NCBI GenBank assembly: GCA_038049695.1
Contig: CP142461.1
Location: 29,953,001-30,017,000, forward strand
Source of the DNA: Cinnamomum chago
Taxonomy: Eukaryota > Streptophyta > Magnoliopsida > Laurales > Lauraceae
Reading direction: 5' to 3'
Length of the DNA: 64,000 nt
The notes under the pieces were generated by a model, which searched no databases, was not told the origin of the DNA, and saw only the letters and a list, made by a program, of their open reading frames with translations. Positions 10,571 through 39,900 of this stretch are shown here, in pieces. Each line of letters begins with the position of its first letter. Positions within the stretch are counted from its first letter, which is position 1. The position numbers were made by a program, and so were the translations under genes.

Positions 10571-10575
10571 ATTAT

Positions 10576-11237: not shown

Positions 11238-11355
11238 TTTATCCAAAATATTCACTTGTCCAAGTGAGGGAAGATTGAACGAGGAAGCCTAGTCAAAGAC
11301 AACTTTCTACTTATTTCTATTTACCATGAAGGAAAGCAAAAGCAACTCGTAATGT

Positions 11356-11363
11356 GATATAAG
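11356..11363 (+). promoter_or_regulatory. TATA-like element upstream of A1
   Basis: GATATAAG about 180 bp before the A1 ATG. The equivalent place in A2 is a full TATATAAG. Position and sequence fit a core promoter; no transcript data. Confidence 0.35.
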
Positions 11364-12534
11364 ATGTCTCCGTTCCTAGTGAGGATCATATAGTATTCTC
11401 ATTCAATCGTCAAAGAAAGAAGAGCAGATCGAGAAAAGTACCTTTGCAAGTCTAAGAGCCTATCTTTGTGTTTAGAGTGGCCAAATCAGACCCTTCTGAA
11501 ATCCAACACTGCATTTAACAGCCCCCTCGGGTTAGTGCAATGAAAATAATTTCTTCCCATCCACTACAGCACTTGCATACATCCTTTGAGCTGAGAGATG
11601 TGTTTCTTCTCCCAGATGATGCGATCTTACATATTTTTGCCAGATTGCCTTTTGAATCTCTCGTTAGATTTAAATCTGTAAGTGAGTTTCGACATACATT
11701 GTTTTCCGACTGGTACTTCATTAAACTCAATAATGAAGAGTCATGGAAAAAACCAATGGCCTTGCTTGTAGAAGATAATTCTAGCAGAAATCCTATGAGA
11801 TGTGTGGACAAATCGGGTCTCTCTTTCGAGTTCATTCTAGGTTTCTAGAACGATCATGTGCGGGTTAGAGCCTCTTGTAATGGTTTGTTGTTTTGCTCAA
11901 GTATGAAAATTGATAGGGCTTACTATGTCTGCAATCCAATGACTAGAGAGTTCAAGTTACTTCCTGTCATTGAAGAGAGAAGACTCACTAAAATCGTGGG
12001 TTTGGCTGTTGACCCATATACTCAGAGGTACAATGTAGTTTTGGCAGTCTTGGCAGACTCTGATTCGTCATACGTCCTTAGGCTTTTTAATTGCTTGTTA
12101 TTTGATTCAGAGACCAATGTTTGGAAGAAGTTGGTTTTCGATTCATTTGGCACTGGTGGTGGACTTGTTTATACTATAGACCAGAATCGGGTTGTCTCCG
12201 TTGGCCGCTCACTTTATTGTCTATCTGTGAGTTCAAAAATACTAGCATTTGATTTGTTCAATGAGGCCTGGAAAAAGACCACTCCCCCAGCTGAGATTGC
12301 TAAAAGTTGTGCAAGTAGGGTTCTCTTGTTGGAGTTGGAAGGGTCTTTGTTAGTGATAAACATTATGGGGGAGTGGATGAATATATGGGTGTTGAAAGAT
12401 TGCCTGAGAGAGGAATGGGAGCTGGCTGATAGAGTGAATCTAGGGAGCATTAGTGAATTCTTAAGAGAGACCGCATTTCCAATAACACTTAATAGGGATT
12501 TCATATTCCTAAGAACCTTCAGAGATGTATGGGT

Positions 12535-12860
12535 CACTACAACAATTTACATTTTTCCCGGCGTTTTTTCCCGGCGTAAATATTAAACGCCGGGGAAAGT
12601 ATACCTTTTCCCGGCGAAAATATTTTTTACGCCGGTATAGGTCACTTTTTCCCGGCGATTTATTTTTTCGCCGGTAAAGATAACTGGGTTAATAAAAAAG
12701 TTGTTAAAAACTTTTCCCGGCGCGAATTTTCGCCGGCAAAAGTGGGTTTTACCGGCGTATTTATATTTCGCCGGCAAATGTCTCCCGCGCCTTCATTTGG
12801 GACATCCCGCGCTGTTTGCCCGAAGTGGTTTTGCCGGCGCACTATTTGCGCCGGGCTTGA
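12535..12860. repeat. left subterminal repeat region of the CACTA element
   Basis: Contains about a dozen CCGGCG or CGCCGG motifs, mostly as TTTTCCCGGCG or GCCGGCAAA in both orientations. In known CACTA elements such motifs bind the transposon's own DNA-binding protein; that role is inferred here. Confidence 0.85.
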
Positions 12861-12894
12861 TTCATTCCCAACATATGTTTATCGAAACATATGT

Positions 12895-13345
12895 TTATCG
12901 AAACCCTCTCTGTGCTTCAAACCATCTCTCTGCTTCAAACCCTTTCTCTGCGCCCATCTCTCTGCTTCTCCCTCTCCGTCTCGCAGCGCCTCTCTACTTC
13001 TCTGCTTCTCCCTCTCGGTCCATCTCCCTCATATGCTTCTCCCTCTCGGTCCTTCTCCCTCGTCTCTGCATTTCCCCAAAGCACACAAGAAATCGCCCAT
13101 CTCCCTCTCGGTCCATCTCCCTCATCTCTCTGCATCTCCCTCTCGGTCCCTCTCACCTCGTCCAGCGCCCATCTCCCTCGTCCAGCGCCCAAGCTCCCTC
13201 TCCGTCTCGCAGCGCCCATCTCCCTCGTCCAGCGCCCAAGCTCCCTCTCCGTCTCGCAGCGCCCATCTCCCTCGTCCAGCGCCCAAGCTCGCAGCGCCCA
13301 TCTCCGTCTCGCCCAAGCTCGGCGTCGGTTGCAGGTAATGCGCCC
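12895..13345. repeat. CT-rich minisatellite in the CACTA element
   Basis: Blocks of CTCCCTCTCGGTCC and a longer unit CAGCGCCCATCTCCCTCGTC repeat several times, most regularly at 13150-13320. Several overlapping reading frames here are products of the repeat and not genes. Confidence 0.75.
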
Positions 13346-16300
13346 ATCTCCGTCTCGTCGGCGTCGTTTTCTTCTCCATCTGTCTGCAAATCTGATTTGT
13401 TCTCTTTTCCTTTTTATTTATTTTTCTTATTTTTTCCTGCTTTTAAATAAATTTTCCTCAAGCCATTAAAATAAAAAACCAGTTACAACCAGTCCAACCA
13501 GTCCAACCAGTTCTAGGATTTGGAACCTCAGGGACTACAGTTTCCTTGGCTGAAAAATTCAAGTGCACAGGCTCTGTTTTGTTGTGGTGTGGTCTACTCT
13601 AATCTTTGTTTCTAGAGGATCATTGAGGTGGTTTTAGCCATTGATGATCCATGGCTGTGGAGTGTGGGGGTGAAGCCTAAAAATCTAGATATTGACCCTA
13701 CACTCGATCTTGGGCCATGGTTTATGATGGGGTTGTTATCTTAACCTTCTATCTCGTTTGCCCATTTTTATCAGTCATGGTGGGATTGATCTGGTTGTTT
13801 GTGGAATGGAGGTGTCTACTAACAACTGAGACATGGAAATATGGAATGTGATGAGCCCAACTGATGCAGGATTAATTCATGTTTCAGTATATCTAGAGAG
13901 TCTAGTGGCAGCCACAATTGTGACCGTTTTGGGTCATCCAATGATAGGATTTTGCATTTATGAACTCTCTTGGTGACAACAAATCTCACAGTATTATATA
14001 GATCATTTTCATTCAATCACCATACAAATCCAAACAGAGAGTAGAGATACCCACTTTTTTTTTTCTCAATCCAATTATGAAAACATATCCATTGAATAAT
14101 TGATATAATAATGAAGAGAGTTGTATGGACTGCTTAGTGCTTACAAGAGTTTGTAAAAGGTTAAAAAAAAATTCATATTATTTATTTTAATGATCCAAAG
14201 GATTAAAAGTGATGGGGCTTCACTAGACAAGGGGAGTGACCTAAATGATATGGGAAGTCTATCCCCTCCTTTTTTTCTCCTAAATTTTGTTGCTAATGAT
14301 GGGTTTCAATTCAATCTCCATGCCCTTTCCTTCCCCCAATGACAGTTAAGACGAATCCATTTCTCTAATTACAATCAATCGCATTTCCACTTTGGATTCA
14401 GTTTCTCTCCTTCTCGCCTCCTCACCTCATTAAAGCCTGATAAAACTCATGAAGATCTCTTATCTAAAAGACACTTCCTATCACATGGCAAATAATCAGA
14501 CACGGCCACTGTAGTGTCATGACCAAGCAACAAGGCAAAAAATTTCCAATCCATCTATCTGGTATGCTCTCTTGGTGTTTGTATAATCGCCACACTCAAT
14601 TTATGCCCATACAACGTCACAAGTATATGCAGCGGAAGTTCATGCCCTCTCGCCAACAGTCTTACGCCAAACATCCGCAACTACGTAGTAGTACTACTCT
14701 CCCCTCTCAACAATTCCGTTTCACTTTTTATTGACACTGTCAGTTTGCTGTTTGATTTTTGCTAGAAATGTGTGTCGATCAAAATCAGACAATGATATGA
14801 TTGTTAATCACGGTTGGGTTTATTTACAATATACTTGCACTGCGTAGAGCCATTCAACTTTGAGTCCCTTTAAGTGATGTTTGGATCAGTTTTCATGGTG
14901 GTAGCCTTTTCAGTGTTGCCTTGAAAATTATCTTCTACTGTTGTTGTTTTGCCTGTTATATTAAAAAGGGCCAATCATGAGATGAGAGAGAGAGAGAAAG
15001 AGTATTTTGGCTTTTTTTTTAATAGTGGCCCTTCAATACAAAGTAATGTTAAAAGTAGAGAAGGTGGTAACCTAATTTCTAAAATGGTTCACATCCAAAT
15101 TCAATGCCTACACGATTTCAAGAATTTTACTTTATTTGCATTATAAAGTGAATGAGACCTTTATTCACTTTATTAAATCTCTTATTTTTATTCACTTTAT
15201 TAAAAAATGCAAATAAGAGCAAATTTGCTTATTAATTATTATTCTTTGGTTGTCATCATTGATCAATTTTGTCTTATTTTTACTTCTTGTGAGAAATCTC
15301 TTAAGTATTTTCTATGTCTTCATCTACTTTTGTTGGGTAATACATCAACAGCAACTGATGACATGTGGACATCATACCAAGAAGACAGTGATTTATTTAT
15401 TGTCCTTTATATTTTTTTTAAGAGCAAACACTTCCATTAGTGATTAATAAAAGTTACCTGTGATTCGTGCTTGAGATTTGGAAATGTCTATTGAATTAGT
15501 TTATTTATCAGCTTACGAGGACTGTGGGTCCAGGCCTTACAGAGCAGAAAGAGATTATTTTAGACTGTTTTTGGTCTTCCATGGTGGGTCCTTGCATAGG
15601 CATCTAGCCATAATCCCCTTTTTTCATTGGTTCAATTCTCAGCCACTGGGCTTTCTTCCTACCTTCCTTTCTTTTTTTATTCCCCCATTTTTGGTAAGTT
15701 TTAAACTCATTGGGATTAGTGAGATATAACATAAATAGATTTGGTGTTGAACTTGCAGTAAACACCAAAGTGCCTGTGTGTTTGCATTGAATTGAAGTTG
15801 ACAATGGCATATACATAACAACATTAGTACATTACCTTTGTGGAAAATGCTTAGTTCCCAGCCATCTCTCCAATTAAATCCCAGGAAGCAAGATTCTATC
15901 TACGAAATCTGTTCCACGAGCAATTGCAAGTACAGTCTAGCATTGTGCGTCCCACTTGGGCCCACCTTTCAGCAGTGCAGACACTCAATAGTCTTTTTAT
16001 CCTATGATCTAGCAAGAGTCCTTAACTTTATACTCACTAAATCTTTACTCATGGTTGAATTAATCAATGTACTTCCTAGTGATTAATTAGCGAATATGGA
16101 CTACTGATTTGAATGGAATGGAATGGCTTCAGCTATTCTTTCTCTTACTTTTCCCTCATTTCAAAGATGGGTCCCTTTCTACCAAGAAAAAAGATGGCTC
16201 CCTTTACTCCTCTAGAAGTTGATAGGGTACATTTTTGAACCTATGTACAACCCTTTTGGTTTTTTTTTTTTTTTTTTTTTTAACGGTAACGAAAGATTTC

Positions 16301-16808
16301 ATTCAAAAAAAAAAAAAAAAAGAACTAAGTATAGAAAACCAAAGAACTAAGCAGAACTAAGGGTGACAATATAGCTGAGATATTGGAAACATCTGGCAGA
16401 ACTAAGCCCCAAGTTGACACATCTACAGGTGACAAGGTGAGACCTGTGCAACTTTGATAATTTATAATGCTGATGGAACATGCTGTTCTAGTAACATTAT
16501 GCTCATTTTTGGCTCAAGTAATGGTTTATTCTCTCCTTGGGCTCCTGGTGTTCCACTTGAGGTTGTCTAATCTGATCAAAGCCAGACTTGGCTCTTGTGG
16601 AACCCCAGAAACTCATCCATCTATTTCTTTAACTACTAAGATAACACTTCAACACAAATTTTCTTTAAATGTATGGGTCTGTCATATACTTGGTCCATTG
16701 GAAGAGTCAACACTTTCTCGGAATTTTTTTTTTTACGTGGAATCCTCTAATTGCACAAACGCAACCTTAAACTTACGCTTCAAATGCATTTGTGAAAATT
16801 CCTGACAG
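13346..16808. other. CACTA interior without recognised genes
   Basis: AT-rich sequence with no transposase motif and no frame I can assign. A poly-T/poly-A tract at 16261-16322, with ACGGTAACGAAAGATTTC between the runs, resembles the 3' tail of a short LINE on the minus strand. The last bases (about 16740-16800) may hold the preceding exon of the captured LRR gene. Confidence 0.5.
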
Positions 16809-17102
16809 AGATTTGACGCGCAACTACCTCAACGGTACAATCCCACCCGAATGGGGCTCTTTCAAGCGACTGACCAAAATGTAAGTTTCTACACTGCACC
16901 ATGTTTGGCATTTTTTGTTTTGGAAGCAAATCATATCTTGTGTTTTCTGAATTACACATGGAGTTGGTGTGTTTTTCTGCTACTGCAGCTCTTTGACTGG
17001 AAACCGCTTATCTGGGAAAATCCCAAAGGAGATTGGGGACATTACTACTCTACAAGAACTGTATGCTTTCTTTTTTTATAAATGGGTTCTGAAATTTCTA
17101 TT

Positions 17103-17141
<39 letters not shown>

Positions 17142-17400
17142 TTTGAATGTAGAGATTTTAGTAGGGAATTGGATTTTCAGGTTCCTTGAAGCCAACCAGC
17201 TTTTCAGGTTCCTTGAAGCCAACCAACTTTAAAACACAGAGTTGAAATTTTATGTCATCAAAACATTTATAGGAGGAAGCAAAATTGCTTGTCTATGCCA
17301 CTGCTGAATACATCCATTTCATTCTATGTTGCAGTGTGTTAAGGAACTGTAATCTTTATGGACGGATCCCTGCATATGTTGGGAAAGCTGGGACTCATTT
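16809..17400 (+). pseudogene. captured LRR receptor-like kinase fragment (LRR VIII type) with introns
   Basis: Two exons of exactly 72 bp (16809-16880 and 16989-17060) each encode one LRR: LTRNYLNGTIPPEWGSF and SLTGNRLSGKIPKEIGDI. Each is bounded by a correct AG acceptor and GTAAGT or GTATGC donor. A third piece (17335-17400) encodes LRNCNLYGRIPAYVG between AG and GTAAGT. Between them, 17185-17230 has a duplicated LEANQL. Single-LRR 72-bp exons and these sequences match the extracellular part of LRR VIII kinases such as At1g07650, At1g53430 or LIK1. No kinase domain is present. Retained introns show capture at DNA level. Its place inside the CACTA borders makes this a transduplicated fragment. 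Confidence 0.8.
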
Positions 17401-18534
17401 GTAAGTTGATTTTCTATTAGTTATGTAATCACATGTTTGGCTGCTCACCGCAGTGGGGCACTAGATTTATCAATTTGAATGCGTTTTCCTATCTGATTCT
17501 TGTTGTAGTTTCTCCATGCCACATGAGGTTGGTGGGCAGATGGAATGGTTTGGTGAATAGATTTCTGATTTTATTTGTCTTAGCAGATGGGTCCTATTTG
17601 AGTGTTTCACAGAGATGGAAAAGTTGCTCTGGACTTGATGATGGAAGGGTGGTTTGTGTGGGCTGAGTGCTGAGATGAAGTTGATCAGAAGATGAGTGAA
17701 GTGGTTGGGCGTGCAGGTGGATTCGGACTCGAATTGGTAGAGGTGGGACGTATGATGATGGTTGCTTGGAGCAATTTCAAAGAGGGACTGGACTGGATTA
17801 AGTTTGTGCATGTGGGCAGGGGGTGTTGGGTGTAGGTTCGGTGGAGATGGTGATTTGCAGTAGCCGATTGGTTGCAAAAAAATTGACTTGGTGTTTGACT
17901 GGTTTTGGTTGGAAGGAATGGGTTGCTGGCATATATGGCGTTTGGAATGCGTGCAGATGACTTCGGGGCGGATTTGGTCATTTGTTTGGATGGCTCAGAG
18001 GGAGATGAGGAATAAGGAGATGATCCTAAGATTGGGTGTGGATGGAGATGATGGAGTTGTGTGGGCTGGCTATTTGGTTGCAGTCGAGATGGTCTGGAGT
18101 CTGGACGTGAGGCTCTGTTCTCGGCTCGGGGCTCAGTTGGTGAAGAAAGACAAGTTTGTTTGACAAGGAGAGAGATAACTAGCAAGAGAGAGAGAGATCG
18201 TTAAAGAAGCATGAAGTCAAAATAAGAAGCGTGGATAAGGTTGTAAGAAGTGAATATGTATAGATTTTCAAATATGGTATGTTGTACATTTGGATGAGGT
18301 TGTAAGAGGTTGTTTCTCTCTAACAGTTGACTCAACTCTACACGAATTGGATAATATTAATTTTCATTTTGGTTGGATGTTGCCCTTTTCAATTATTGTA
18401 TATTTTTGTGTTGATAGATTTTTATTAATTAGATTAATTTTTTTTAATTGGAGACCTTCAGTGTAATGATTTATATATAGGAAAAAAAATTGATTAAAAT
18501 ATAAATATTTTGCCGACCTAAAAGAAGTGCGGCA

Positions 18535-19086
18535 AAATTTTAAAAAAAAATTATATTCATGTTTTCCCGGCGCAAAAAAGCGCCGGCAAAAAATTTTCTA
18601 AAATAAATTTATGATTCCCGGCGAAAAATAACGCCGGCAAAGAATTATAAATATTTATTATTTAAAATATAAACTTTTTACCGGCGAAAATAACGCCGGC
18701 AAATGTTTTTTAAAAATTTATTATTTTAAACATAACACTTTTCCCGGCGAAAATTAACGCCGGCAAAAGTTTTTAAAAAATTTTTTATTCAAAATATAGC
18801 CCTTTACCGGCGAAAATAACGCCGGCAAAGCTTTTTTAAAAATTTATTATTTAAAACATGACACTTTTTTGCGGCGAAATAATAACTTTTCCCGGCGTTA
18901 TTTTTCGCCGGTAATGTTAAACTTTTGCCAGCGCTTCCTGATTTCGCCGGAAAAAGGTTTTACTGGCACACTTTTCCCGGCGCTTTGCCGGCGCAAAAAA
19001 AAACGCCGGTAAATGTTTTCTCCGGCGTTTTTTTGACCTTTGCCGGCGTTTTTTTAGCGCCGGGAAAAATGTAAATTGTTGTAGTG
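18535..19086. repeat. right subterminal repeat region of the CACTA element
   Basis: A run of about five 60-65 bp tandem units (about 18560-18850), each holding an inverted pair CCGGCGAAAATAACGCCGGC, separated by AT-rich stretches and followed by irregular CCGGCG motifs up to the terminal repeat. A CRISPR-like look was considered and dismissed. Confidence 0.85.
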
Positions 19087-21113
19087 GGTATTTCGTCGCA
19101 AGAGTAGAAAGTGGAACAAAGTTCATAAAGCGTCATGGAGATTTGCTACCTTTCCTTTTAGAAGCACACTATGTTCATGTTACTAGAATCTGGAGTCTTA
19201 TTAATTATTTGGATAATTACAAGCATCTGAGGCTGAGTTTTCTCTTTGTTTGTTTTTCTTAGGGTGATTAGAATGCTTAATTTTTTTTGGTTCCTGCTTA
19301 TAATCAACTTTTTCTATGTTTTTCCTTGCTGCATCTTTTCACGTTTGGATCTTAATTAGCGCAGTTGATTGTTTCCTTCTATTATGTTAATTGGAGTGTT
19401 GTGTTATTGATTTATTAAATCAAGTGGGACCATACCTTAAAGAGATACATGAATGAAGTCATTTTACTAATGACTCATTGGAGTCAATTTCATGTGCAGA
19501 AAAAAGTGCTAGCTTAGTCCACTTTTAGCAGCATAAAACAATTTCCAACGGTAAAAAAGTGCCACAAACCCTTGGATCGCGGCGGGTGTTGGGGTGGAAA
19601 TGACACTTTTAGCAGCGGAAAACAATTTCCACCATTAAAACTAAGTTCTGTTAAAGGCGCCTTTTTTTTTGTTGCTAAAAATCACTTCTTTTTTTTTGTT
19701 GATTTAAAACTCTATTTAGCACCATTACTTTGTTGAACTCTTTCTATGTTGAAAATGGGTATGGCTGAAATCGTTATGGCCTAAGAATGGGTCATGATTG
19801 TTTAGCAACATTAGAACCGTTAAGATAATATTCGGTAACACTGTAGAGTTAGAATAGTTTAGTGAGTATTCATACATTTATAATATACAACTTTAAAAAA
19901 TCATTAATAATATCCATGTAGTCTTCCACATGTAAACCATGGGAAAATTAAAAATTAATTTTGAATCATTAAATTAAACATAATTCCTCTTTGATAAAGC
20001 TTTTTTAATCATTAAATTGAACAGTTCTACGAATTTTTTTTCTTTTCTAAAAAATGAATCGAAACAGACTTCAGGATTGACAATCAAAGACATGTTTCTT
20101 TAAGAAAAAATGTCCATGTTTTATACTCTGGTGTCTTCAACAAAATTTTAGGCTAAAAAGTTCATGTTTTATACTCTTGTGTCTTCAACAAAATCTTAGG
20201 CTAAACTACATTGTATATTCTGACAGGTTAGAAATATAGAATTATAGTTTAATCACAAAGATTATATTCACAGTATCTTATAACCGATGGTTGTTATATT
20301 TCCGAAATCTTATGCTTAGAATGTTTTGACATCATTATTAAAATTGTTAAATGATGAATTCAACCAAAGAAACTTCCATTATAAATCAAATGGTTCTAAT
20401 TAATCTTGTTAAATATAAAAATAATTTCAATGAAGCTTATAAGTTAAGTGAATTACTAGAACATATTTTAGGCCATTGTTTGCCTCCTTAATGGACGAAT
20501 TAGCTTAGTGATTCCAACCTTTGGTTTCTCGCGCAAGAACCCTAGACATTTTAAGTAACGTCTAACTTATAATTTGAAGAGCCATCAGGAAACCCCATAA
20601 TAATTGGATTATAGGTTTCGGGGGCAACGAGGGCATGCTGCCCCCTCTCGACCCTCAACCCACAGAGTGGTGGTATCTTTCATTGCTAGTACCTAGTACC
20701 TAGAGCTTAGTTAGATAGATCTAGTGTTGGACCACTTGAATTGTAACGTGTAAGCTTGAGATCAGCAAAGAGTGGCTGTTTGGGCCGATTTTCACTCCCG
20801 GATTGTTCGGAGACATCTGAAGCATGAGGAATTGGTGATAAGACAAGGGTATTTAATATAAACTTAGTGCTTTGGAATGTCAAGCACCACTAGTGTTGAA
20901 AACATGGCATTCAAATCCTATAGGCGCATAAAGTCGAATATTATCATGCTTACATGTTAAGGCCAATCTCAGACTTAGAATGGCTCCTTGTAGTTAATGA
21001 TTCCTTGAATGATGTTCCACAGGTTATTAGTTGTACCTTGTGTACTTGTTTACTTACGTGCCTCAGGCATGCTTTTCTTTTATGGATAATGTTTCATTTT
21101 ACATCGTACCCCC

Positions 21114-21242
21114 ATGTCGCTTGCCGACGTTAGCGTCGCAATTTGGCTATACGGAGTCGTGCCCGGGGACTTTGCGGACATGGAAATGCCGCTTCTTCCT
21201 TTCTATCGACAAGATCCTTGGCTGTTCTTTACTGGTTGGTGA
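21114..21242 (+). other. 42-codon exon-like segment, copy in U1
   Basis: Open frame of 42 codons plus stop beginning MSLADVSVAIWLYGVVPGDF and ending near FYRQDPWLFFTGW. The copy in U2 keeps the frame with a few substitutions; in U3 most of it is deleted. Base composition is more GC-rich than the surroundings and GTGAGC at its end could be a splice donor. I do not recognise the protein. It may be an exon remnant of a gene older than the array. Confidence 0.3.
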
Positions 21243-21984
21243 GCTAGAGGGAGAGGAATCCATGCTCTCTTGGACTTGCTTGAGAGAGAGAGAGAGAGAG
21301 AGAGTTCAGCTTTTTAGGGCATGTTTGTGTAATATTTTTTAGAGGAAAAGTGAACAGTTTTTTATGGAAAACTTATTTTTCTGATGTTTGGCACGGAATA
21401 ATTTTGGGGAAACGCTTTTCTGCACCATCAACATTTTTCTTGATTATGGTGGAAATGAGTTTCCTATGGGGATATGGAAAATAGATTTCTACGGAAAACT
21501 TCTCCCTCTTAGTCCATTTTAACCCAAAACCCTACAACTCTTTCATTTTTTATTTTTTTAAATAAATTATTATTTGATGCTGAATAAATAATATACAAGT
21601 TATGTTATTTTTCTCCAAAAGATTATTTCACCAAATTAGAAAATTTGATTTTCTATAAGAAATTCATAACGCACCAAACAATATTGGCACCAATTCAATA
21701 GAGAATTTTTTTTTTCACCAAACATGAATTTCGAAATTCTACGGAAAATCGTTTTACGAGGTTTTCATTTTTATGGAATTTGATGACGTGACAATTTTCT
21801 CTTTTTGCGGAAAGGGTGTGTACACAAACGTGCCCTTAATGTTATTTTTCAAAACTCCAAAAGTGTCTAAATTCCATTTTTATATATTCATTTCAGATTT
21901 TTCAGTTTTTGGGCCAAGATAAATTGAGGATTACCCAGCTGGATATCAATATCCCAACATTCCTTGACAGTGTTAAAAGAAAAA

Positions 21985-22260
21985 AAAATACAGGGTGGAG
22001 CAGCCACATAGCTTCAAACTCGAAAGGGGTTTTCATTGAAGAGGGATGAGGGTTGTGGGAGAGCAAGATGGGGTTATGATCAGAAGAGATTCTGGGCAAA
22101 GGAGAGAGAGATGGGTCATAATGTTGATTAAGGAGAAACTCTATCAAGGCGAGATGCAACATAGCCCGAACTTTGGCAATTATTTGACCAACAGCTGCTT
22201 CCCTGTGGAGCCAATTCCGGGCTTGCAGCCAGCGTCATGCTGTTGAAGTCGTTGGCGGGT
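21985..22260 (-). pseudogene. LINE (L1-type) endonuclease fragment, U1 copy
   Basis: Minus strand encodes, in more than one frame, pieces of an L1-type apurinic endonuclease: NDFNSM (from GDFN), SRLDRV, LPRISSDHNPILL and FEFEAMWLLHP. Their order matches plant LINE ORF2. Only about 275 bp remains and it is broken. The same fragment is in U2 and U3, so it was present before the array duplicated. Confidence 0.65.
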
Positions 22261-22692
22261 GGTTGAAATTGAGTCTTAATTACATCATTGCTTTGAAATG
22301 ACATTGAATCACCAATCAAACAAAAGGACGGTTAGTAGCTAGAGCAGAAATTTATCAGGTGTGACCACAAAGATCTTTGTTTGGAAGTAGTTAGCTGAGG
22401 CATAAATACTAGTTATTAAGCTGACCGTACCATTGTTGGGGGTTGGTGAGGGTAATGGTGGGATGTTGGGAGGAGGTCTCAGAGAAAAAAAAAAAAAAAA
22501 AACTTTAAAAAACTGAGATGATGGGACGAGCTTAGGAGGCAGATTGAACTGTTTCGTTGAAGTTCAATTTCCTTAGGACCCTTTTCTTTTCTTTTTTTTT
22601 ATAAGTACGCAGTAGAGGTGTAAAAAGAAAATTGAAAAACCATCTAATCAAACTGAGCTCAACCGAATCGAACCAAATTACGGTTAATAACC

Positions 22693-28320: not shown

Positions 28321-28521
28321 GTTGAAACTGAGTCTTAATTACATCATTGCTTTGAAATGACATTGAAATCACCAATCAAACAAAAGGACGGTTAGTAGCT
28401 AGAGCAGAAATTTATCAGGTGTGACCACAAAGATCCTTGTTTGGAAGTAGTTAGTTGAGGCATAAATACTAGTTATTAAGCTGACCGTACCATTGTTGGG
28501 GGTTGGTGAGGGTAATGGTGG

Positions 28522-29516: not shown

Positions 29517-30319
29517 AATCGTGGGATGTTGGGAAGAGGACTCAAAGAAAAAAAAAACTTTAAAAAACTGAGATGATGGGACGAGCTTAGGAAGCAGATT
29601 GAACTGTTTAGTTGAAGTTCAATTTCCTTACAGCCCTTTTTTTTTTTATAAGTACGCAGTAGAGGTGTAAAAAGAAAAACGAAAAACCGTCTAATCAAAC
29701 TGAGCTCAACCGAATCAAACCAAATCGTGGTTAATAACCGTGTTTCATAATTTGGAGTGTTTCCCAGATGATGTGATGTTGAATATTTTTGCCAGATTGC
29801 CTGTTGAATCTCTTGTTAGATTTAAATCTATTTGTAAGCTTTGGCATAAATTGAAATCCAACAAGTACTTTATTCAGTTCTATAATGATGAGTCATGGAA
29901 AGAAAAAAAAAACACCAATCGTCCTTATAAAAAGGTGGTCTGGAAAAATTCATACGGGCTGTGTGGGTAAATCAGGTTTCTCTTCTAAGTTCAATTTGGG
30001 TTTCTTGGATGATAATGTGTAGGGGTGTAAGAAAAAACCGCCTAACCGTCAAACCGCACCGAACCGAACCGAACCGCGGTTATTAACCGTATTTTCACGG
30101 TTCGGTTCGGTTACGGTTAATAAAACCAAAAAACCGCACGGTTCGGTTCGGTTACGGTTTTCCACAATATTCACGGTTATTAACCGAACCGAACCGTAAA
30201 ATATGGTTCGGTATACGGTTAACCGCACCGATAACAAATAAAATTATATACAAGGGGGGTAAACGAAATTTTCCTTACCTAAAACCAAACCCTAGCTTCC
30301 CAGTCCCACATCGTCATCG

Positions 30320-31630
30320 CCTCCCAGACGCCTCCCTTTCTGCTCTCTCCCTCCCTCTCATCTCCACATCGTCATCGCGTCATCGCCTCCCTCTCTCAGC
30401 AGCTCCCCTCTCTCAGGTACACGCATCTTTCCATCTCTCCTTTCTCCCTCTCTGCTCTCTATCCCTCACTCTCTCCATCTCTCTGCTCTCTGCTCTCTCC
30501 CTCTCTGATCTCCCTCTCTCCCCTCTCTCATCGTCTCCCTCTCTGCTCTCCCTCCCTCTCTGATCTCCCTCTCTCCCCTCTCTCATCATCTCCCTCTCCG
30601 CTCACCCTCTGTCTCTCCCTCTCTGATCTCCCTCTCTCCCGTCCACTCTCTCTGCTCTCTTCCTCACCCTCTCTCTGCTCCGCCCACTCTCTCCCTCTCG
30701 TTTGCTCCTTCTCCCCCTCGCTCTCTCCCCTTCGTTTCCGCCCTGCGCCCACACGCCTCCCTCTCTGCTCTCCCTCTCTACCCTCTCTGCTCTCTCCCTC
30801 TCTACTCTACCCTCTCTGCTCTCCCTCCCTCTCTGCTCGCTCCCTCTCTCTCTCTCCATCTCGATCTCTCTGCTCTCTCCCTCTCTGATCTCCCTCTCTC
30901 CCCTCTCTCATCGTCTCCCTCCTCTGCTCTCTCTCTCTCTGCTCTCCCTCCTCTGCTCTCTCTCTCTCTGCTCTCCCTCCCTCTCTGATCTCCCTCTCTC
31001 CCCTCTCTCATCGTCTCCCTCTCTGCTCTCCCTCCCTCTCTGCTCTCTCCCTCTCTCTCTCTCCATCTCCATCTCTCTGCTCTCTCCCTCTCTGATCTCC
31101 CTCTCTCCCCTCTCTCATCGTCTCCCTCCTCTGCTCTCTCTCTCTGCTCTCCCTCCCTCTTTGATCTCCCTCTCTCCCCTCTCTCATCGTCTCCCTCTCT
31201 GCTCTCTCTCTGCTCTCCCTCCCTCTCTGATCTCCCTATCTCCCCTCTCTCATCGCCTCCCTCTCTGCTCTCTCTCTGCTCTCCCTCCCTCTCTGATCTC
31301 CCTCTCTCCCCTCTCTCATCGTCTACCTCTCTGCTCTCTCTCTCTGCTCTCCCTCCCTCTCTGATCTCCCTTTCTCCCCTCTCTCATTGTCTCCCTCTCT
31401 GATCTCCCTCTCTCCCGTCCACTCTCTCTGCTCTCTTCCTCACCCTCTCTCTGCTCCGCCCACTCTCTCCCTCTCGCTCGCTCCTTCTCCCCCTCGCTCT
31501 CTCCCCTTCGTTTCCGCCCTGCGCCCACACGCCTCCCTCTCTGCTCTACCCTCTCTACTCTCTCCCTCTCTACTCTCCCTCTCTACCCTCTCTGCTCTCC
31601 CTCCCTCTCTGCTCTCTCCCTCTCTCTCTT
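30320..31630. repeat. CT-rich minisatellite within hAT copy 2
   Basis: Variants of CTCTCTGCTCTCCCTC and TGATCTCCCTCTCTCCC over 1.3 kb. There is a higher-order duplication: the segment starting GTCCACTCTCTCTGCTCTC at 30641 recurs at 31417, an offset of 776 bp, including the unique words TTCGTTTCCGCCCTGCGCC. Long reading frames on both strands are artefacts of the repeat. Confidence 0.85.
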
Positions 31631-32215
31631 GGAATGCCATAATAGGAGGTATGCAACAAGGATCCAACCAACTTGTTATTCTGACTAATGTGGAATATGA
31701 TCCTGCAAGATGCATATTTCCCATCTTGGTTACTCGCTGGATTATTGGTCTGATGGTTTTTGGATTTGGAACGCTTTAAAAATCTCCATGATTCCAAAAT
31801 CCCAACCACTTAATTATAGGCCTATAGTTGGTTAGGAATGAAGACACAAGCAGTCCTATCAAGATCAATGATCCAGATCTAGAAACTATGTATTGGCTTT
31901 GTAGTCAACGAAATGACATGTTTTCCCTGACTACTCCAACATCAACATCAATTCATGTCTATGAATATCATCGAATTCTTAGCTTTTCTGCTCTTAGTTG
32001 TAAGCTTTGTTATCAGTTCACTTAACTGAACTGTGAAATGCTGCTTAGACTATTGAGACCATACATGATGTGCTTATATTGCAAAAAAATTCCATTCTTT
32101 TACAGGCTATGTGCACAATGGGCAAGGTGAGGAAGCCTTGAAATTACATTCCTTAATGGTGGAAACAAATATAAGAAACATCTCTTACTCAGGTTTTCTA
32201 CCATGTTTGTTTTAA
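31630..32215 (+). pseudogene. captured PPR-like gene fragment in hAT copy 2
   Basis: Two short coding-like pieces: SWNAIIGGMQQG (31629-31664) and, after a good acceptor TTTTACAG, GYVHNGQGEEALKLHSLMV (32106-32162). Both fit the start and end of plant PLS-class PPR motifs (xSWNAIIxGYxxNGxxxEALxLFxxM). The roughly 440 bp between may be intron. No full PPR motif is present, so the call is tentative. Confidence 0.5.
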
Positions 32216-32845
32216 CTAGATGAATGAAATTAAATTATACTGTATTACTGTGTATATTTTTCCACGGTTATTAACCGTAACCGAACCGTATAATACGGTT
32301 AACCGCGGTTCGGTTTTCCATGGTTTTTGTATATACGGTTACGGTTACGGTTTTTAAAGACGGAAAACCGCGGTTACGGTTCGGTTAACGGTTTCCCCAA
32401 AAAGACCGGTTAACCGAACCGTTACACCCCTAATAATGTGATAACAAGAGCCTCTTCCAATGGTCTGCTTTGTTGCACACGCACGACAAATCCAAAGGCT
32501 AGCTATGTCTGCAATCCAATGACTACAGAGAGTTTAAGTTGCTTCCAAAATCTTAAAAAAGGAGATCCATTTATGAAGAAAACCTTTTATTAATAAATTT
32601 GGCTGTTGACCCACATACTTACAGTGTTTGCAAACTTCGATCCTCCATACTCCAGTCTGCTTCCTATTGAGTGCCTGTTTTTATTGAGTACTTATTGGTG
32701 AACGGTTATTTTACTAGTTGATAATGAACATAATTAGACCGTCTCCGTGGGGTGGGTCGCTCGCTTTATTGGTTAACATTAAGTGTAAAAAATATTAGTG
32801 CTTGATTTGTACAATGAGGTGACTCAATTGAATGGATTGTTGAGA

Positions 32846-32885
<40 letters not shown>

Positions 32886-33113
32886 TTAAATGTCTTATTC
32901 TATAAGGGCACTATGCACTATGTTTTTATTTTTTAAGGATAGTCTGGTTATTTTGTATAAAACCACAATTCTTTTCCAAGAGGTATGTATGGACAACACA
33001 GTTGGTGTAACCCTAATTTTAAAGGCTCATGCTCTTGTGCATCTTTCTTGCACAATATTACTGTACAAGACAGCTGGGGCCCAACAAATCAGGGGTGTAG
33101 CAACTCGTAATGT

Positions 33114-33121
33114 GATATAAG
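33114..33121 (+). promoter_or_regulatory. TATA-like element upstream of A3
   Basis: GATATAAG, 177 bp before the A3 ATG and 11 bp after the U2/U3 junction; one base weaker than the A2 version. Confidence 0.35.
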
Positions 33122-33297
33122 ATGTCTTCGTTCCTAGTGAGGATCATATAGTATTCTCATTCAATCGTCCAAGAAAGAAGAGCAGATCGAGAAAAGTACC
33201 TTTGCAAATCTAAGAGCCCATCTTCGTGTTTACAGTGGCCAAATCAGACCCGTCTGAAATCCAACACTGCATTTAACAGCCCCCTCTGGTTAGTGCA

Positions 33298-34389
33298 ATG
33301 AAAATAATTTCTTCCCATCCACTACAGCACTTGCATACATCCTTTGAGCTGAGAGATGTGTTTCTTCTCCCAGATGATGTGATCTTACATATTTTTGCCA
33401 GATTGCCTTTTCAATCTCTCGTTAGATTTAAATCTGTAAGTGAGTTTCGGCATACATTGTTTTTCGACAGGTACTTCATTAAACTCAATAATGAAGAGTC
33501 ATGGAAAAAACCAATGGTCTTGCTTGTAGAAGATAATTCTAGCAGAAATCCTATGAGATGTGTGGATAAATCGGGTCTCTCTTTCGAGTTCTCTCTAGGT
33601 TTCTTGAATGATCATGTGCGGGTTAGAGCCTCTTGTAATGGTTTGCTGTTTTGCTCAAGTATGAAAATTGATAGGGCTTACTATGTCTGCAATCCAATGA
33701 CTAGAGAGTTCAAGTTACTTCCTGTCATTGAAGAGAGAAGACTCACTAAAATCGTGGGTTTGGCTGTTGACCCATATACTCAGAGGTACAATGTAGTTTT
33801 GGCAGTCTTGGCAGACTCTGTTTCGTCATACGTCCTTAGGCTTTTTAATTGCTTGTTATTTGATTCAGAGACCAATGTTTGGAAGAAGTTGGTTTTGGAT
33901 TCATTTGGCACTGGGGGTGAATTTGTTTATACTGCAGACCAGAATCAGGTTGTCTCCGTTGGCCGCTCACTTTATTGTCTATCTGTGAGTTCAAAAATAC
34001 TAGCATTTGATTTGTTCAATGAGGCCTGGAAAAAGATCACTCCCCCAGCTGAGATTGCTAAAAGTTGTGCAAGTAGGGGTCTCTTGTTGGAGCTGGAAGG
34101 GTCTTTGTCAGTGATAAACATTATGGGGGAGTGGATGAATATATGGGTGTTGAAAGATTGCCTGAGAGAGGAATGGGAGCTGGCTGATAGAGTGAATCTA
34201 GGGAGCATTAGTGAATTCTTAAGAGATACTGCATTTCCAGTAACACTTAATAGGGATTTCATATTCCTAAGAACCTTCAGAGATGTATGGGTATTTCGTC
34301 GCAAGAGTAGAAAGTGGAACAAATTTCATAAAGCGTTATGGAGATTTGCTGCCTTTCCTTTTAGAAGCACACTATGTTCATGTTACTAG
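33298..34389 (+). CDS. F-box protein A3, At5g49610-like
   Basis: Single-exon gene of 363 residues, about 97 percent identical to A2. Same domains: F-box at residues 20-62, F-box-associated domain to the end, C-terminus PFRSTLCSCY. Differences from A2 include Gln39-Ser40 for Glu-Cys in the F-box, VSSYV for DSSYV, and a GTGGEFVYTADQ segment for GIGGGLVYTADQ. It carries the same Ser48/Arg51 in place of the usual F-box Cys and Trp. No stop, shift or insertion is seen. Expected role: substrate receptor of an SCF ubiquitin ligase, target unknown. Its upstream sequence is the tail of unit U2. Confidence 0.9.
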   Translation: MKIISSHPLQHLHTSFELRDVFLLPDDVILHIFARLPFQSLVRFKSVSEFRHTLFFDRYFIKLNNEESWKKPMVLLVEDNSSRNPMRCVDKSGLSFEFSLGFLNDHVRVRASCNGLLFCSSMKIDRAYYVCNPMTREFKLLPVIEERRLTKIVGLAVDPYTQRYNVVLAVLADSVSSYVLRLFNCLLFDSETNVWKKLVLDSFGTGGEFVYTADQNQVVSVGRSLYCLSVSSKILAFDLFNEAWKKITPPAEIAKSCASRGLLLELEGSLSVINIMGEWMNIWVLKDCLREEWELADRVNLGSISEFLRDTAFPVTLNRDFIFLRTFRDVWVFRRKSRKWNKFHKALWRFAAFPFRSTLCSCY

Positions 34390-37287
34390 AATCTGGAGTC
34401 TTATTAATTATTTGGATAATTACAAGCATCTCAAACTGAGTTTTCTCTCTGTTTGTTTTTCTTAGGGTGATTTTAATGCTTAAGTTTTTTTTTTGGTTCT
34501 TGCTTATAATCAATTTTTTCTATGTGTTTCCTTGCTGCATCTTTTCAAGTTTGGATCTTAATTGGTGCAGTTGATTGTTTCCTTCTATTTTGTTAATTGG
34601 AGTGTTGTGTGATTGATTTATTAAATCAAGTGGGACCATACCTTAAAAGAGATACATGAATGAAGTCATTTTACTAATGACTCATTAGAGTCAATTATAT
34701 GTGCAGAAAAAAGTGCTAGCTTAGTCCACTTTTAGCGGCGTAAAACAATTTCCAACGGTAAAAAAGTGCCACAAACCCATGGAACGCGGCGGGTGTTGGG
34801 GTGGAAATGTCACTTTTAGCAGCGGAAAACAATTTCCACCCTCAAAAGTACTGTTAAATGCGCTTTTTTTTTTGTTGCTAAAAATCACTTTTTTTTTGTT
34901 GATTTAAAACTCTATTTAGCACCATTACTTTGTTGAACTCTTTCTATGCTAAAAATGGGTATGGTTGAAATCGTTATAGCCTTAGAATGGGTCATGCTGG
35001 TTTAGCTACGTTAGAATCGTTAAGATAATATTCAGTAACACTGTAGAATTAGAATAGTTTAGTGAATATTCATACCTTTATAATATGCAACTTTAAAAAA
35101 TCATTAATAATATCCATATAGTCTTCCACATGTAAACCATGGGAAAATTAAAAATTAATTATGAATCATTAAATTAAACATAATTCCTCTTTGATAAAGC
35201 TTTTTTAATCATTAAATTGAACAGTTCTACGAGAATTTTTTTTTCTTTTCTAAAAAATGAATCGAAACAGACTTAAGGATTGACTATCAAAGACATGTTT
35301 CTTTAAGAAAAAATGTTCATGTTTTATACTTTGGTGTCTTCAAAAAAAAATTAGGCTAAAAAGTTCATGGTTTATACTCTTGTGTCTTCAACAAAATCTT
35401 AGGCTAAACTACATTGTATATTTTAATAGGTTAGAAATATAGAATTATAGTTTAATCACAGATTATTTTCACAGTATCTTATAACCGATGGTTGTTATCT
35501 TTTCGAAATCTGATGCTTAAAATGTTTTGACATCATTATTAAAATTGTTAAATGATGAATTCAACCAAAGAAACTTCCAAAATAAATCAAATGGTTCTAA
35601 TTAATCTTGTTAAATATAAAACTAGAGCAAGTTCAGTGAATTACTAGAAGAATAAAAATAATTTCAATGAAGCTTATAAGTTTAGTGAATTACTAGAATA
35701 TATTTTAGGCCATTGTTTGCCCCCTTAATGGACCAATTAGCTTAGTGATTCCACCCTGTGGTTCCTCGCACAAGAACCCTAGACATTTTAAGTAACCTCT
35801 AACTTATAATTTGAAGAGCCATCAGGAAACACATAATAATTATCATGCTTACATGTTAATGCCAATATCTCAGACTTAGAATGGCTACTTGTAATTAATG
35901 ACTCCTTGATTGATGTTCCACAGGTTATTAGTTGTACCTTGTGTACTTGTTTACTAACGTGCCTCACGCATGCTCTCCTTTTATGGATAATTAATGTTCA
36001 ATTTACATCGTAGTACCCCATGTCGCTTGCCACGTTGGCGTCCCAATTTGCATGAGAGAGAGAGAGAGAGAGAGTTCACCTTCTTTAGAGCATGTTTCGT
36101 AATACTTTTTTAGGGAAAGTGGATGGTTTTTGATGAAAAATTTATTTTTCGATGTTTGATGCGGAATAATTTTGTGGAAACGCTTTTCTGTATCATCAGC
36201 ATTATTCTTGATAATGGTGGAAATGAGTTTCTTATGGGGGGTATGAAAAATAGATTTCTTCAGAAAACTTCTCCATCTTTTTCTCACTCTTGTCCATTTC
36301 AACCAAAAACCCTACAACTCTTTCATTTTTTTATTTCTTTAAATAAATTAGTATTTGATGTTGAATAAATAATATACATGTTATGTTATTTTTTTTCAAA
36401 AAATTATTTCACTAAATAAGAAAATTTGATTTTCTATAAGAAATTTACAGTCGCACCAAACATCATTGTCACAAATTCAATAGGAATTTTTTTTTTTTTT
36501 GCACTAAACATGAATTTCTAAATTTTACGGAAATCATTTTTTAAGGTTTTCATTTATATGGAATTTGCTGACGTGACATTTTTTCCTTTCCGCGAAAAAG
36601 GTGTGTACATAAACGTGTCCTTAATATTATTTTTCAAAACTCCAAAAGTGTCTAAATTCCATTTTTACAGATTCATTTCAGATTTTTTAGTTTTTGGGCC
36701 AAGACAAATTGAGGATTACCGAGCGGGATATCAATATCCCAACATTCCTTGACAGTGTTAAAAAAAAAAAAAAAAAAAAAAAAACAAACAGGGTGGAGCA
36801 GCCACATAGCTTCAAACTCGAAAGGGTTTTCATTGAAGAGGGATGAGGGTTGTGGGAGAGCAAGATGGGGTTATGATCAGAAGAGATTCTGGGCAAAGGA
36901 GAGAGAGATGGGTCATAATGTTGATTAAGGAGAAACTCTATCAAGGCGAGATTTATCAGGTGTGACGACAAAGCTCTTTGTTTGGAAGTAGTTGGTTGAG
37001 GCATAAAGACTAGTTATTAAGCTGACCGTACCATTGTTTGGGTTGGTGAGGGTAATGGTTGGATGTTGGGAGGAGGACTCAGAGGAAGACTTGGCCAAAC
37101 ACCAGATTGAACTGAGATGATGGGACGAGTTTAGGCGGCAGATTCAACTGTTTAGTTGAAGTTCAATTTCCTTACGACCCTTTTTTTTTTATAAGTATGC
37201 GGTAGATGTGCAAAAAGAAAATCAAAAAACCATTTAACCAAATTAAACTGAACCGAATCGAACCGAACCAAACCGCGGTTAATAACC
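34390..37287. other. U3 spacer between A3 and B3
   Basis: Shortened version of the U1 and U2 spacers. The block that holds the 42-codon frame is largely deleted near 35840-36050. A truncated LINE fragment remains at 36787-36955, and a hAT-like AACCG remnant lies just before B3. Confidence 0.6.
36787..36955 (-). pseudogene. LINE (L1-type) endonuclease fragment, U3 copy
   Basis: Keeps LPRISSDHNP on the minus strand, with FEAMWLLHP-region DNA (SLKLCGCSTLF in the shifted frame), but lacks the NDFN end present in U1 and U2. Confidence 0.55.
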
Positions 37288-37481
37288 GTGTTTCACAATT
37301 TGGAATGTTTCCCAGATGATGTGATGTTGAGTATTTTTGCCAGATTGCCTGTTGAATCTCTTGTTAAATTTAAATTTGTTTGTAACCTTTGGCATAAATT
37401 GATATCCAACAAGTACTTTAATCGGTTCTACAATGATGAGTCATGGAAAAAAAAAAAAAAAACAATCGTCCTTATAAAAAG

Positions 37482-37578
37482 GGAGGAAGTCCACATGAAC
37501 CGAATGGGGAGACCGGATTCTCGCCCGATCCCCCATGAGGACCATTGGATCCCCCCATTCGGTTCATGTAGCAGGACT
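37482..37578. mobile_element. 97-bp foldback MITE, MULE-like
   Basis: Absent from B1 and B2. Its ends are near-perfect inverted repeats around ACATGAACCGAATGGGG. Flanks TATAAAAAG (37473-37481) and CATAAAAAG (37579-37587) are a 9-bp duplication with one mismatch, the size used by Mutator-like elements. No coding capacity. Confidence 0.8.
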
Positions 37579-37974
37579 CATAAAAAGTTGGTCTGGAAAA
37601 AATCGTACGGGCTGTATGGGTAAATCAAGTTTCTCTTCTGAGTTCAATCTGGGTTTCTTGGATGATAATGTGATAACAAGAGCCTCTTCCAATGGTCTGC
37701 TTTGTTGCACAGACACAACAAATCCAAAGGCTAGCTATGTCTGCAATCCAATGACTACAGAGAGTTTAAGTTGCTTCCTAAATCTTAAAAAAGGAGATCC
37801 ATTTATGAAGAAAAACCTTTTGTTAATAAATTTGGCTGTTGACCCACATACTTACAATGTTTGCAGACTTTGATCCTCCATACTCCAGTCTGCTTCCTAT
37901 TGAGTGCCTGGTTTTTAATTCAGAGACCAATGCATGGAAGATATTTGGTTTTGATTCATCTATCAGCCAAGAAA

Positions 37975-38275
37975 ACATTATACTATATTAAGCTGAAGGG
38001 TTTTTGAGACAATTTTAACCATGACTTATTAATTTGACTGTGAATTATAACTCCCCACTTTTAATATGTAACCACTCTCCACTTCCAATATGGATACACT
38101 CATTTTCCTCATTAAACTACCTCTTCTTATCACTGTTTTATAGAACTTCATTTCTATCCCTATGATAATCATCAAATCATTTTCATAAGCATTGAAGATT
38201 GATTTTGTGTAATTTGAGTGTTTTTTTAAAAAATCACTATATATACTTCTTAGTTATTGGTGAACGGTTATTGTA
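37975..38275. mobile_element. Helitron-like fragment inside B3
   Basis: Same sequence class as 46405-46743, starting TATACTATATTAAGCTGAAGG-like and lacking the 3' hairpin. Confidence 0.5.
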
Positions 38276-38394
38276 CTAGTTGATAATGACCAGAATTGGA
38301 CTGTCTACGTGGGTTGCTCGCTTTATTGGTTAACATTAAGTTAAAAATTATTAGTACTTGATTTTTACAATGAGGTGACTCAATCTCAACAATC

Positions 38395-38397
<3 letters not shown>

Positions 38398-38441
<44 letters not shown>
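38398..38441. repeat. (CT)n microsatellite
   Basis: About 22 CT repeats. The equivalent tracts in U1 (about 23703-23724) and U2 (about 32851-32885) are shorter, so the length varies between units. Confidence 0.9.
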
Positions 38442-38444
<3 letters not shown>

Positions 38445-38596
38445 AAATGTCTTTTTCTATAAGGGCACTATGCACTATGTTTTTATTTCTTAAGGATAGT
38501 CCGGTTATTTTGTATAAAACCACAATTCTTTTCCAAGAGGTATGTATGGACAACACAGTTGGTGTAACCCTAATTTTAAAGGCTCATGCTCTTGTG

Positions 38597-39599
38597 TAGG
38601 GTTGCACATAGGCGGTTCGGATCGGTTTAACATTAAAACCAACAACCAAACTGAACCTATCGATTTTTTAATTAACCGATCCGATTCGACTGATGGAGAG
38701 GGCTTAAACCGAACCGAACCAAACCAAACGGTTCGGTTCGGTTCGGTCGGTTAAACCATTGTTTTTTATTTTATTTTTTTGAAAATCAAACATTGAAAAT
38801 TTCAAAATGATGATACCTCGTCCTTTGCATTTATTACAATGTTTAGTGCAAACATAAAAATCCTACATTCCATACTAGACTAAACGCATATTAAAAATAA
38901 TCATACTCCAGAAAGAGAGTTTGGACTAAACACAAGCTCCCAAAAAAAAAAAAAAAAACCAACTTGCAGTAAAACATTCATTCAGCTGATACCATTTGGA
39001 ATTATAATAGAATAATAGTTCATGTTAAGAAAAGTTACACACAAACGGAATCTGTATCAGAACCCATTGTATTTTTAAAAAATGAAGGCTTCTTAACACA
39101 TTGGTTAGGTAAGACTAAAACCAATCATCAAAAGGCTAGGATCTATTGACTTTTCTATTATTCTCAAGAGTGCAGCCTTCTGATAAAAACTTCATTGAAA
39201 CAAGTTAGGAATTATGATGGAAGGAAAACACCATGTACAGTAATCCTTCAATTTGCAATGAAGTATCAAAAAGCATTTAAGATATTAGAAGAGATGCACT
39301 GATGTGGTGTTGACGGTTGAGTTCATGTGAGAATGAAGTTGTGGAATGTAATTTTGAAAGTAGTAAAAAACGAAACCTTAGAGCTAAAATAGTAAAAAAA
39401 CAATACTTAAGTTACTACATACGGTCGGTTCGATTTAAGCGGTTAACCATGGGCTCAAACCGATAACCGACCGATGTAAGCAATTTTTATGATTTTCAAA
39501 CCATTAACCAAACCGATCTACTATAAACCGATCCGAACTGCCCGGTTCGGTCGGTTCAGCTCGGTTTTGCGGTGATACCAAATTTTTTGTACAACCCTA
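38597..39599. mobile_element. non-autonomous hAT element (TAGGGTTGCACA family)
   Basis: Ends TAGGGTTGCACA and TGTACAACCCTA, with a perfect 8-bp duplication CTCTTGTG (38589-38596 and 39600-39607). U1 and U2 show the empty site. Both ends are rich in GGTTCGGTTCGG and ACCGATCCG words. No transposase in 1003 bp. Confidence 0.9.
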
Positions 39600-39900
39600 C
39601 TCTTGTGCATCTTTCTTGCACAGTATTACTGTACAAGACAGCTGGGGCCCAACAAATCAGGGGTGTAGCATTTTGATAGCCCTAGGTGTATTGCAAAGTA
39701 GGTTATAAGAGGAATTCCAATAAATGTGTAAATCCATCAGTGGGTCACATGATTAAAATCCTAGGAGCTCAGATTTATTACCCTTGGACCCACTGATGGT
39801 TTAAATTGATCGCTCAGATCATCTCTAACCATGGCCCAGGAGAATCCAATCCAGTATGACTTGAAGTTGTAAGAGTGGCCCACAGCAGATCACAAATCAA

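Follow-up and report, generated by a model that had tools for sequence, protein, structure and literature searches.

A tandem F-box gene array in Cinnamomum chago with a four-base founding junction, enclosed in two larger tandem duplications, one of them putative

A stretch of 64,000 nucleotides of Cinnamomum chago DNA (C11:29953001-30017000, where C11 is contig CP142461.1 of assembly GCA_038049695.1; hereafter the window) carries a tandem array of F-box gene units, which spans window positions 11341-39670 and whose left edge, two internal junctions and right edge all fall on the word AGCA. A search of the genome with the unit start (1.06 Gb in 14 contigs, one assembly) found eight units on C11, grouped in three arrays: S1, with two units, about 51 kb upstream; S2, the array of the window, with three; and S3, downstream, also with three. 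These arrays, which were compared within 230 kb fetched around them, sit inside two larger tandem duplications of about 45 kb and 62.6 kb, and their unit numbers of 2, 3 and 3 stand in, as paralogues, for copy-number variants among individuals. We consider it likely, and with considerable confidence in the account as a whole, that the array was founded by duplication at a microhomology, changed its number of units by unequal exchange and was copied by two further tandem duplications. The first-pass annotation of this DNA had proposed a three-unit array of this kind, an outline that holds but that omits the two larger duplications enclosing the three arrays.

The founding breakpoint is fixed to the base, as had been claimed. 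In a self-comparison of the window, homology between units begins at 11341, 23940 and 33099 and ends at 39670, with 33032-33102 and 39600-39670 matching at 98.6% identity as common unit ends; the overlap between left and right edge is exactly four bases, and the flanking bases on both sides mismatch. The four AGCA sites and their flanks were found exactly where the annotation had placed them (Table 1). No homology between units is listed beyond either outer edge in the self-comparison tables of the window; the flanks of the array are duplicated along with it elsewhere on the chromosome, which is homology between arrays and not between units, and hence not the kind of extension that the annotation had named as contrary to its reading. 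Since a duplication junction passes to every later unit, the AGCA overlap is counted once, and the four sites are one inherited founding junction rather than four coincidences.

The same junction recurs throughout the cluster. AGCA stands at three left edges, five internal junctions and three right edges across S1, S2 and S3, and the edges and internal junctions are identical apart from one changed base after AGCA in the second unit of S1 (S1u2). The junction string GTGTAGCA(A/C)CTCGTAATG has five matches in the genome, all inside the cluster, and its reversed control has 0. Of the 40 matches listed for the left flank (best 40 of 165 candidates), only those in the three arrays extend over the approximately 95 bp next to the breakpoint, and only the arrays match the right flank outside its PPR part and the last 71 bp of the unit (best 40 of 41 candidates in both cases). 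A single-unit or empty-site copy elsewhere in the genome was not found with the left flank (best 40 of 650 candidates, a search swamped by a repeat, and best 40 of 165), with the right flank (best 40 of 41) or with the exact junction string; the joined-flank string expected of an empty site was absent from the 230 kb searched, the whole genome not having been searched for it. The AGCA junctions showed no transposon end; of the dispersed repeats found, the nearest stops about 100 bp short of the left breakpoint, to its left.

A segment holding two F-box loci, A and B, would have been duplicated head to tail by joining two sites with AGCA alone in common, most likely through end joining or template switching at the microhomology. 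It could be argued that the unit was instead an insertion with AGCA as its target-site duplication, multiplied in place by later exchange, as a single AGCA-flanked unit looks alike under both models. We regard this as highly improbable: the left end is the 5' region of an F-box gene, 199 bp upstream of its start codon; no copy of the unit with these ends was found elsewhere (the five junction matches all lie in the cluster, and the 71-bp end matched only the arrays among its best 40 of 41 candidates); and a relative of A at C11:30.57 Mb stops short of the unit boundary. That relative, at 74% identity, is the sole one compared of three more distant ones, the others being on C2 (68%) and at C11:55.0 Mb (65%).

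Each unit contains gene A, whose ATG lies 199 bp after the unit start, and the second F-box locus B, about 73% identical to A in DNA, so that the description of the array as one of F-box units was right but missed the presence of two loci per unit, many of them broken. The two intact A proteins of the window score 23.3 and 25.9 bits for the Pfam F-box (cut-off 20.5) and 37.5 and 41.1 bits for an At3g26010-like propeller (cut-off 25), and so combine an F-box domain with a substrate-binding domain, as in plant F-box (FBX) proteins. Counting S1, S2 and S3 together, five of the eight units have an open A reading frame of 363 aa (S1u2, S2u2, S2u3, S3u2 and S3u3) and the other three a broken one (S1u1, S2u1 and S3u1, the last two with one common lesion), while B occurs, in the matches listed, with frameshifts or stops or as fragments only. 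Ratios of nonsynonymous to synonymous substitution (dN/dS) among three intact A copies were 0.36, 0.66 and 0.36 (one-sided Fisher p 0.021, 0.24 and 0.045), values that suggest weak constraint at best; neutral birth-and-death, with a few intact F-box genes kept, would be our reading of the family in this cluster.

As the founding break lies so close to the start codon of A, every internal unit acquired a new upstream region, the tail of the preceding unit, whereas unit 1 kept the old one. Copies of A with the old upstream region are inactivated in each of the two independent lineages: S1u1 has a stop at codon 162 and an insertion, and S2u1 has a stop at codon 103 and an insertion of its own. 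In the three internal lineages S1u2, S2u2 and S2u3, A is open. This might suggest that the junction created a chimeric promoter that took over expression, with selection keeping only junction-driven copies, a reading that we offer as speculative and rather unlikely; broken copies number two of two with the old upstream region and none of three among the internal ones (Fisher p 0.10), counts too few to show a link.

Evidence for exchange between units comes from trees of S1u1, S1u2, S2u1, S2u2 and S2u3, S3 being left out as a near-identical copy of S2. The topology of the five units changes along their length. In the unit middle, S1u1 pairs with S2u1 (support 98/97) and S1u2 with S2u2 (100/99), S2u3 standing apart, and a constraint uniting S1u2 with S2u3 is rejected by the approximately unbiased (AU) test (p 0.00047); at the back of B, S1u2 groups with S2u3 (100/100), and its union with S2u2 is rejected (AU p 1.3e-11), the groups tested having been named after the site patterns were seen. 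S1u2 also holds part of I2a, an insertion of S2u2, together with I3, an insertion of S2u3. A nearest relative that switches along the sequence, a feature of unequal crossing-over, is thereby found in S1u2 and again in the block P2 described below, though conversion can leave similar traces.

The mixed insertions and the tree switch of S1u2 make it probable that the three unit lineages were already present when S1 and S2 parted. The likeliest event in S1 is then the loss of one unit by recombination of unit 2 with unit 3 within the B pseudogene, between unit 3 coordinates 37403 and 38273. The first-pass annotation had expected alleles with other unit numbers and the same junction; a two-unit form with these junctions does exist, but as the paralogous array upstream and not in another accession, and it looks contracted rather than ancestral. 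With the same left edge, junction and right edge and one unit fewer, S1 could be taken for the ancestral stage from which the three-unit array later expanded. Its second unit, however, carries both part of I2a and I3 and switches nearest relative, and after simple expansion I2a would be expected in unit 3 too, where it is lacking; the proposal was rejected on the mixed insertions and the trees, and we consider it unlikely.

Growth from two to three units is suggested by the same comparisons. In alignment columns 9400-11150, S2u1 and S2u2 are 95.8% identical and S2u3 is about 90% identical to both, which fits such growth by unequal exchange; at the back of B the corresponding values are 92.0 and 92.5% against 96.8%, and in columns 8400-9400 the gap is smaller (S2u3 94.9 and 94.5%, against 96.1% between S2u1 and S2u2). 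Units 1 and 2 are sisters over the unit middle and the younger pair, with unit 3 older there. Alternatively, a single rolling or template-switching amplification could have produced the three units together, with conversion alone making them differ later, in keeping with junctions that are identical save for one base in S1u2; the greater age of unit 3 relative to the split of units 1 and 2 in mid-unit speaks against it, and it seems to us very unlikely. Private sites of S2u3 make up 92 of 1916 in the middle and 8 of 1000 in the left kilobase (Fisher p 5.9e-10), and as its long branch is found in the middle and not at the left, the A-gene end of the units, some 1-2 kb, has been homogenised. The earlier proposal of unequal crossing-over to three units gains from the mosaic units and the younger split of units 1 and 2, but leaves out this homogenisation of the left part. 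Within 25165-25882, 12 of 20 two-against-three sites unite S2u2 with S2u3 (tree 100/99), which may be either a local conversion tract or the trace of an older exchange.

The next level is a tandem duplication of about 45.3 kb, made up of S1 and the original S2. Exactly TTCAACT, and nothing beyond it, is common to the left edge (C11:29895548), the junction (C11:29940826) and the right edge (C11:30081582). Past the edges, in 25.5 kb on the left and 18.4 kb on the right, the matches were short and scattered, with no collinear homology. The region of the right edge is of low copy number, with three matches including itself (3 of 3 candidates scored), and the left edge lies within a high-copy dispersed repeat (best 40 of 994 candidates). 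Late insertion of a truncated repeat was tried as an explanation of this junction and rejected, no collinear homology resuming in the 18.4 kb past it and the sequences left of S1 and S2 being collinear past the repeat; tandem duplication fits better. At AGCA and TTCAACT alike, a short exact overlap is kept once and long homology at the breakpoint is lacking. The array-bearing segment would accordingly have been duplicated at the 7-bp overlap when, as we infer, the array already had three units, the upstream copy later falling to two.

The last level is the 62.6-kb period of the window itself. S2 and S3 differ at 49 positions in 56,706 bp (0.086%) outside block P, a block found at the right end of each array in three copies, P1, P2 (that of the window) and P3. 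P2 has no private substitutions and switches parent type: over 37577-42223 it agrees with P3 at the 80 sites that set P1 apart, 76 of which precede 39472, and over 43072-43907 it is P1-like at 16 sites where P3 differs, with one site private to P1 at 43258; a further 92 of the 108 sites private to P3 fall past the end of the homology. Such a pattern would be expected from one unequal exchange between P1 and P3 followed by a few later changes, and the 62.6-kb duplication looks like the product of homologous recombination between the right ends of two arrays, with its crossover between 42223 and 43072. The substitution-free tract of P1 and P3 at 39472-41578 may reflect either an earlier conversion or an earlier exchange.

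Several points weigh against this account. An overlap of 4 bp is on its own weak evidence of mechanism, as overlaps of at least 4 bp occurred by chance in 2.0% (P 0.020) of random breakpoint pairs at the same spacing (up to 200,000 pairs for each frequency). The proposed microhomology-mediated founding is consistent with the overlap and with breakpoints at which no transposon end was seen; the TTCAACT overlap, of a length (at least 7 bp) reached by 0.064% of random pairs (P 0.00064), strengthens the microhomology mechanism. The dispersed repeat at the left edge of the 45-kb duplication could have had a role in it. Contraction of S1 from three units to two could instead be gene conversion between arrays, and as the trees are weakly resolved at the A-gene end (support 83-86) and at the front of B (68-83), the exchange from two to three units is not located. 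P2 is not simply P3 joined to P1, having private indels of 12 bp at 38398 and of 1 bp at 41109, which later small changes would account for. Furthermore, the substitution-free tract of P1 and P3 spans the right edge of the array, and S1 therefore provides no independent evidence on where the right breakpoint lies.

The most serious of the rival readings concerns the 62.6-kb copy, which may be an assembly artefact in which two haplotypes were joined at block P. A divergence of only 0.086% is what such a join might be expected to leave, and a misjoin at P would yield the same hybrid as a crossover; on the other side, the 230 kb contain no N, and near-identity within P covers only about 3.6 kb, a length that long reads, if such were used, would commonly span, though this is a weak argument. 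We hold an artefact to be possible but doubtful, and a real duplication by exchange within P to be the better reading of the copy.

Table 1. Features of the F-box array and its surroundings, in window coordinates
Feature	Position	Strand	Remarks
AGCA, left edge	11341..11344		AAA-AGCA-ACTCG; sequence read
AGCA, junction 1	23940..23943		GTGT-AGCA-ACTCG; sequence read
AGCA, junction 2	33099..33102		GTGT-AGCA-ACTCG; sequence read
AGCA, right edge	39667..39670		GTGT-AGCA-TTTTG; sequence read
Unit 1 (S2u1)	11341..23939	+	F-box A pseudogene, F-box B pseudogene, inserted 6.55-kb element
Unit 2 (S2u2)	23940..33098	+	Intact F-box A, B pseudogene, two inserted elements
Unit 3 (S2u3)	33099..39666	+	Intact F-box A, B pseudogene, one inserted element; the oldest lineage over the unit middle
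F-box A, unit 1, broken	11540..12534	+	Stop at codon 103; split by element at 12535; tail resumes at about 19085-19089
F-box A, unit 2, intact, 363 aa	24139..25230	+	F-box and At3g26010-like beta-propeller
F-box A, unit 3, intact, 363 aa	33298..34389	+	F-box and At3g26010-like beta-propeller
F-box B, unit 1, pseudogene	22714..23252	+	Frameshift, stops; about 73% DNA identity to A
F-box B, unit 3, pseudogene	37309..37958	+	Frame changes
Element in unit 1	12535..19086		Ends CACTACAA...TTGTAGTG; 3-bp target duplication GGT
Insertion I2a, unit 2	28522..29516		8-bp target duplication with one mismatch; part common to unit 2 of the upstream array
Insertion I2b, unit 2	30020..32432		8-bp target duplication ATAATGTG; interrupts the B pseudogene; contains tandem repeats
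Insertion I3, unit 3	38597..39599		8-bp target duplication CTCTTGTG; present as well in the final unit of the upstream array
Block P	38048..43907		Three copies on the chromosome, at right end of each array; putative exchange substrate of the 62.6-kb duplication
Crossover interval, 62.6-kb duplication (putative)	42223..43072		Substitutions P3-like to the left, P1-like to the right
P1/P3 substitution-free tract (indels apart)	39472..41578		37577-39471 differs at 76 sites; covers the right edge
PPR-protein open reading frame	39901..41118	+	Immediately beyond the right edge and part of the duplication of block P; length 405 aa (550 aa in both other copies)
TTCAACT, junction copy of the ~45-kb duplication	50409..50415		GGCAA-TTCAACT-CTACC

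Differences in unit size are due to inserted elements, which are flanked by target duplications. The superfamily names CACTA, given to the element at 12535-19086, and hAT are presumed from the end sequences; imperfect internal tandem repeats occupy 30314-31629 within I2b. Left of the array, 6197-6487 and 10950-11237 are the inverted repeat arms (86% identity) of a dispersed element that ends on the right about 100 bp before the founding breakpoint. A number of its copies elsewhere, and the S1 copy likewise, occur as -/+ pairs 1.1-1.4 kb apart, the arms in the window being about 5 kb apart. A repeat of window positions 10341-10570 recurs at regular steps at C12:21549352-21589179 (8 listed copies 5,657 bp apart), C8:42268904-42280461 (3 copies 5,664 bp apart) and C3:2573503-2591403 (4 copies about 5,890 bp apart), which are regular tandem arrays of a dispersed element.

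To the right, the window copy of the PPR gene has a private 1-bp insertion at 41109, and its shorter reading frame could reflect either a recent lesion or an error in the sequence. Positions 46403-46708, beyond the right edge, share 77% identity with the 3' portion of F-box B and are an older related fragment outside the AGCA units. An open reading frame of 299 aa at 54639-55538, in the same duplicated segment, encodes a KIB1-4 beta-propeller (E 4.6e-38), a domain common in F-box-type proteins, and the frames at 59205-60396, with reverse transcriptase and RNase H domains, are a retroelement remnant. The window begins and ends at the same place of a repeat (1-1412 and 62585-64000, direct, 99.6%); long terminal repeats were considered for this pair and rejected, as it is the 62.6-kb period.

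Microhomology-mediated duplication, unequal exchange and birth-and-death are already known, and what is unusual here is how much of the history can be read. It stands out that three tandem duplications are nested, with clean short overlaps at two of them, and that exchange is recorded at the level of units: a single assembly gives three nested levels, with two founder events (4 bp and 7 bp) and an apparent homologous exchange confined to an interval of 0.85 kb. The start of an array, by microhomology, can in this way be told apart from its change in size, by homologous exchange, and the exact junction sequences would let both rates be measured in a population. A literature search, whose coverage mostly excluded subscription journals, found no published description of this cluster.

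Where duplications arise by transposition of the reversed-ends type, a transposon end is expected at the duplication junction. No such element was seen at the AGCA junctions, a result that concerns the founding level; at the 45-kb level, a dispersed repeat encloses the left edge.

The remaining comparisons draw on the accessible portions of the cited papers. Plant F-box genes have expanded in tandem with many pseudogenes, which was read as genomic drift (PMC3030570); the present array likewise shows tandem F-box expansion leaving pseudogenes, but that work is a phylogeny at the scale of families, and the terms "unequal" and "gene conversion" are absent from the accessible portion of its text. 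Among copy-number variants of rice classed by breakpoint, a gene duplication with microhomology at its breakpoints was read as end joining and non-allelic homologous recombination (NAHR) was a small minority (44, 0.48%) (PMC4812662). Microhomology at duplication breakpoints is common to both cases, the rice study being a catalogue of breakpoint classes and ours a history unit by unit. At AT3G18530/AT3G18535 of Arabidopsis, NAHR between direct repeats of 99% identity flanking the genes has produced tandem duplications and deletions (PMC5101643), and the repeat left behind may be chimeric, as is block P2; there, one level segregates among accessions, whereas here it would be the last of three nested levels in one assembly.

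The closest documented case found, as far as these portions of text go, is the EPSPS array of Kochia scoparia, with tandem units of tens of kb that grow by unequal crossing-over, a second repeat type whose start has 7-bp identity with the boundary of a mobile element and was ascribed to microhomology-mediated repair, and a 16-kb mobile element just up- and downstream of all repeats that was held to have begun the process (PMC6808082). It differs in the element beside its repeats, no element end having been seen at the AGCA junctions, and in its known herbicide selection, the array described here having no known selective cause; tandem units, unequal exchange and a 7-bp overlap are features that the two arrays share (PMC6808082).

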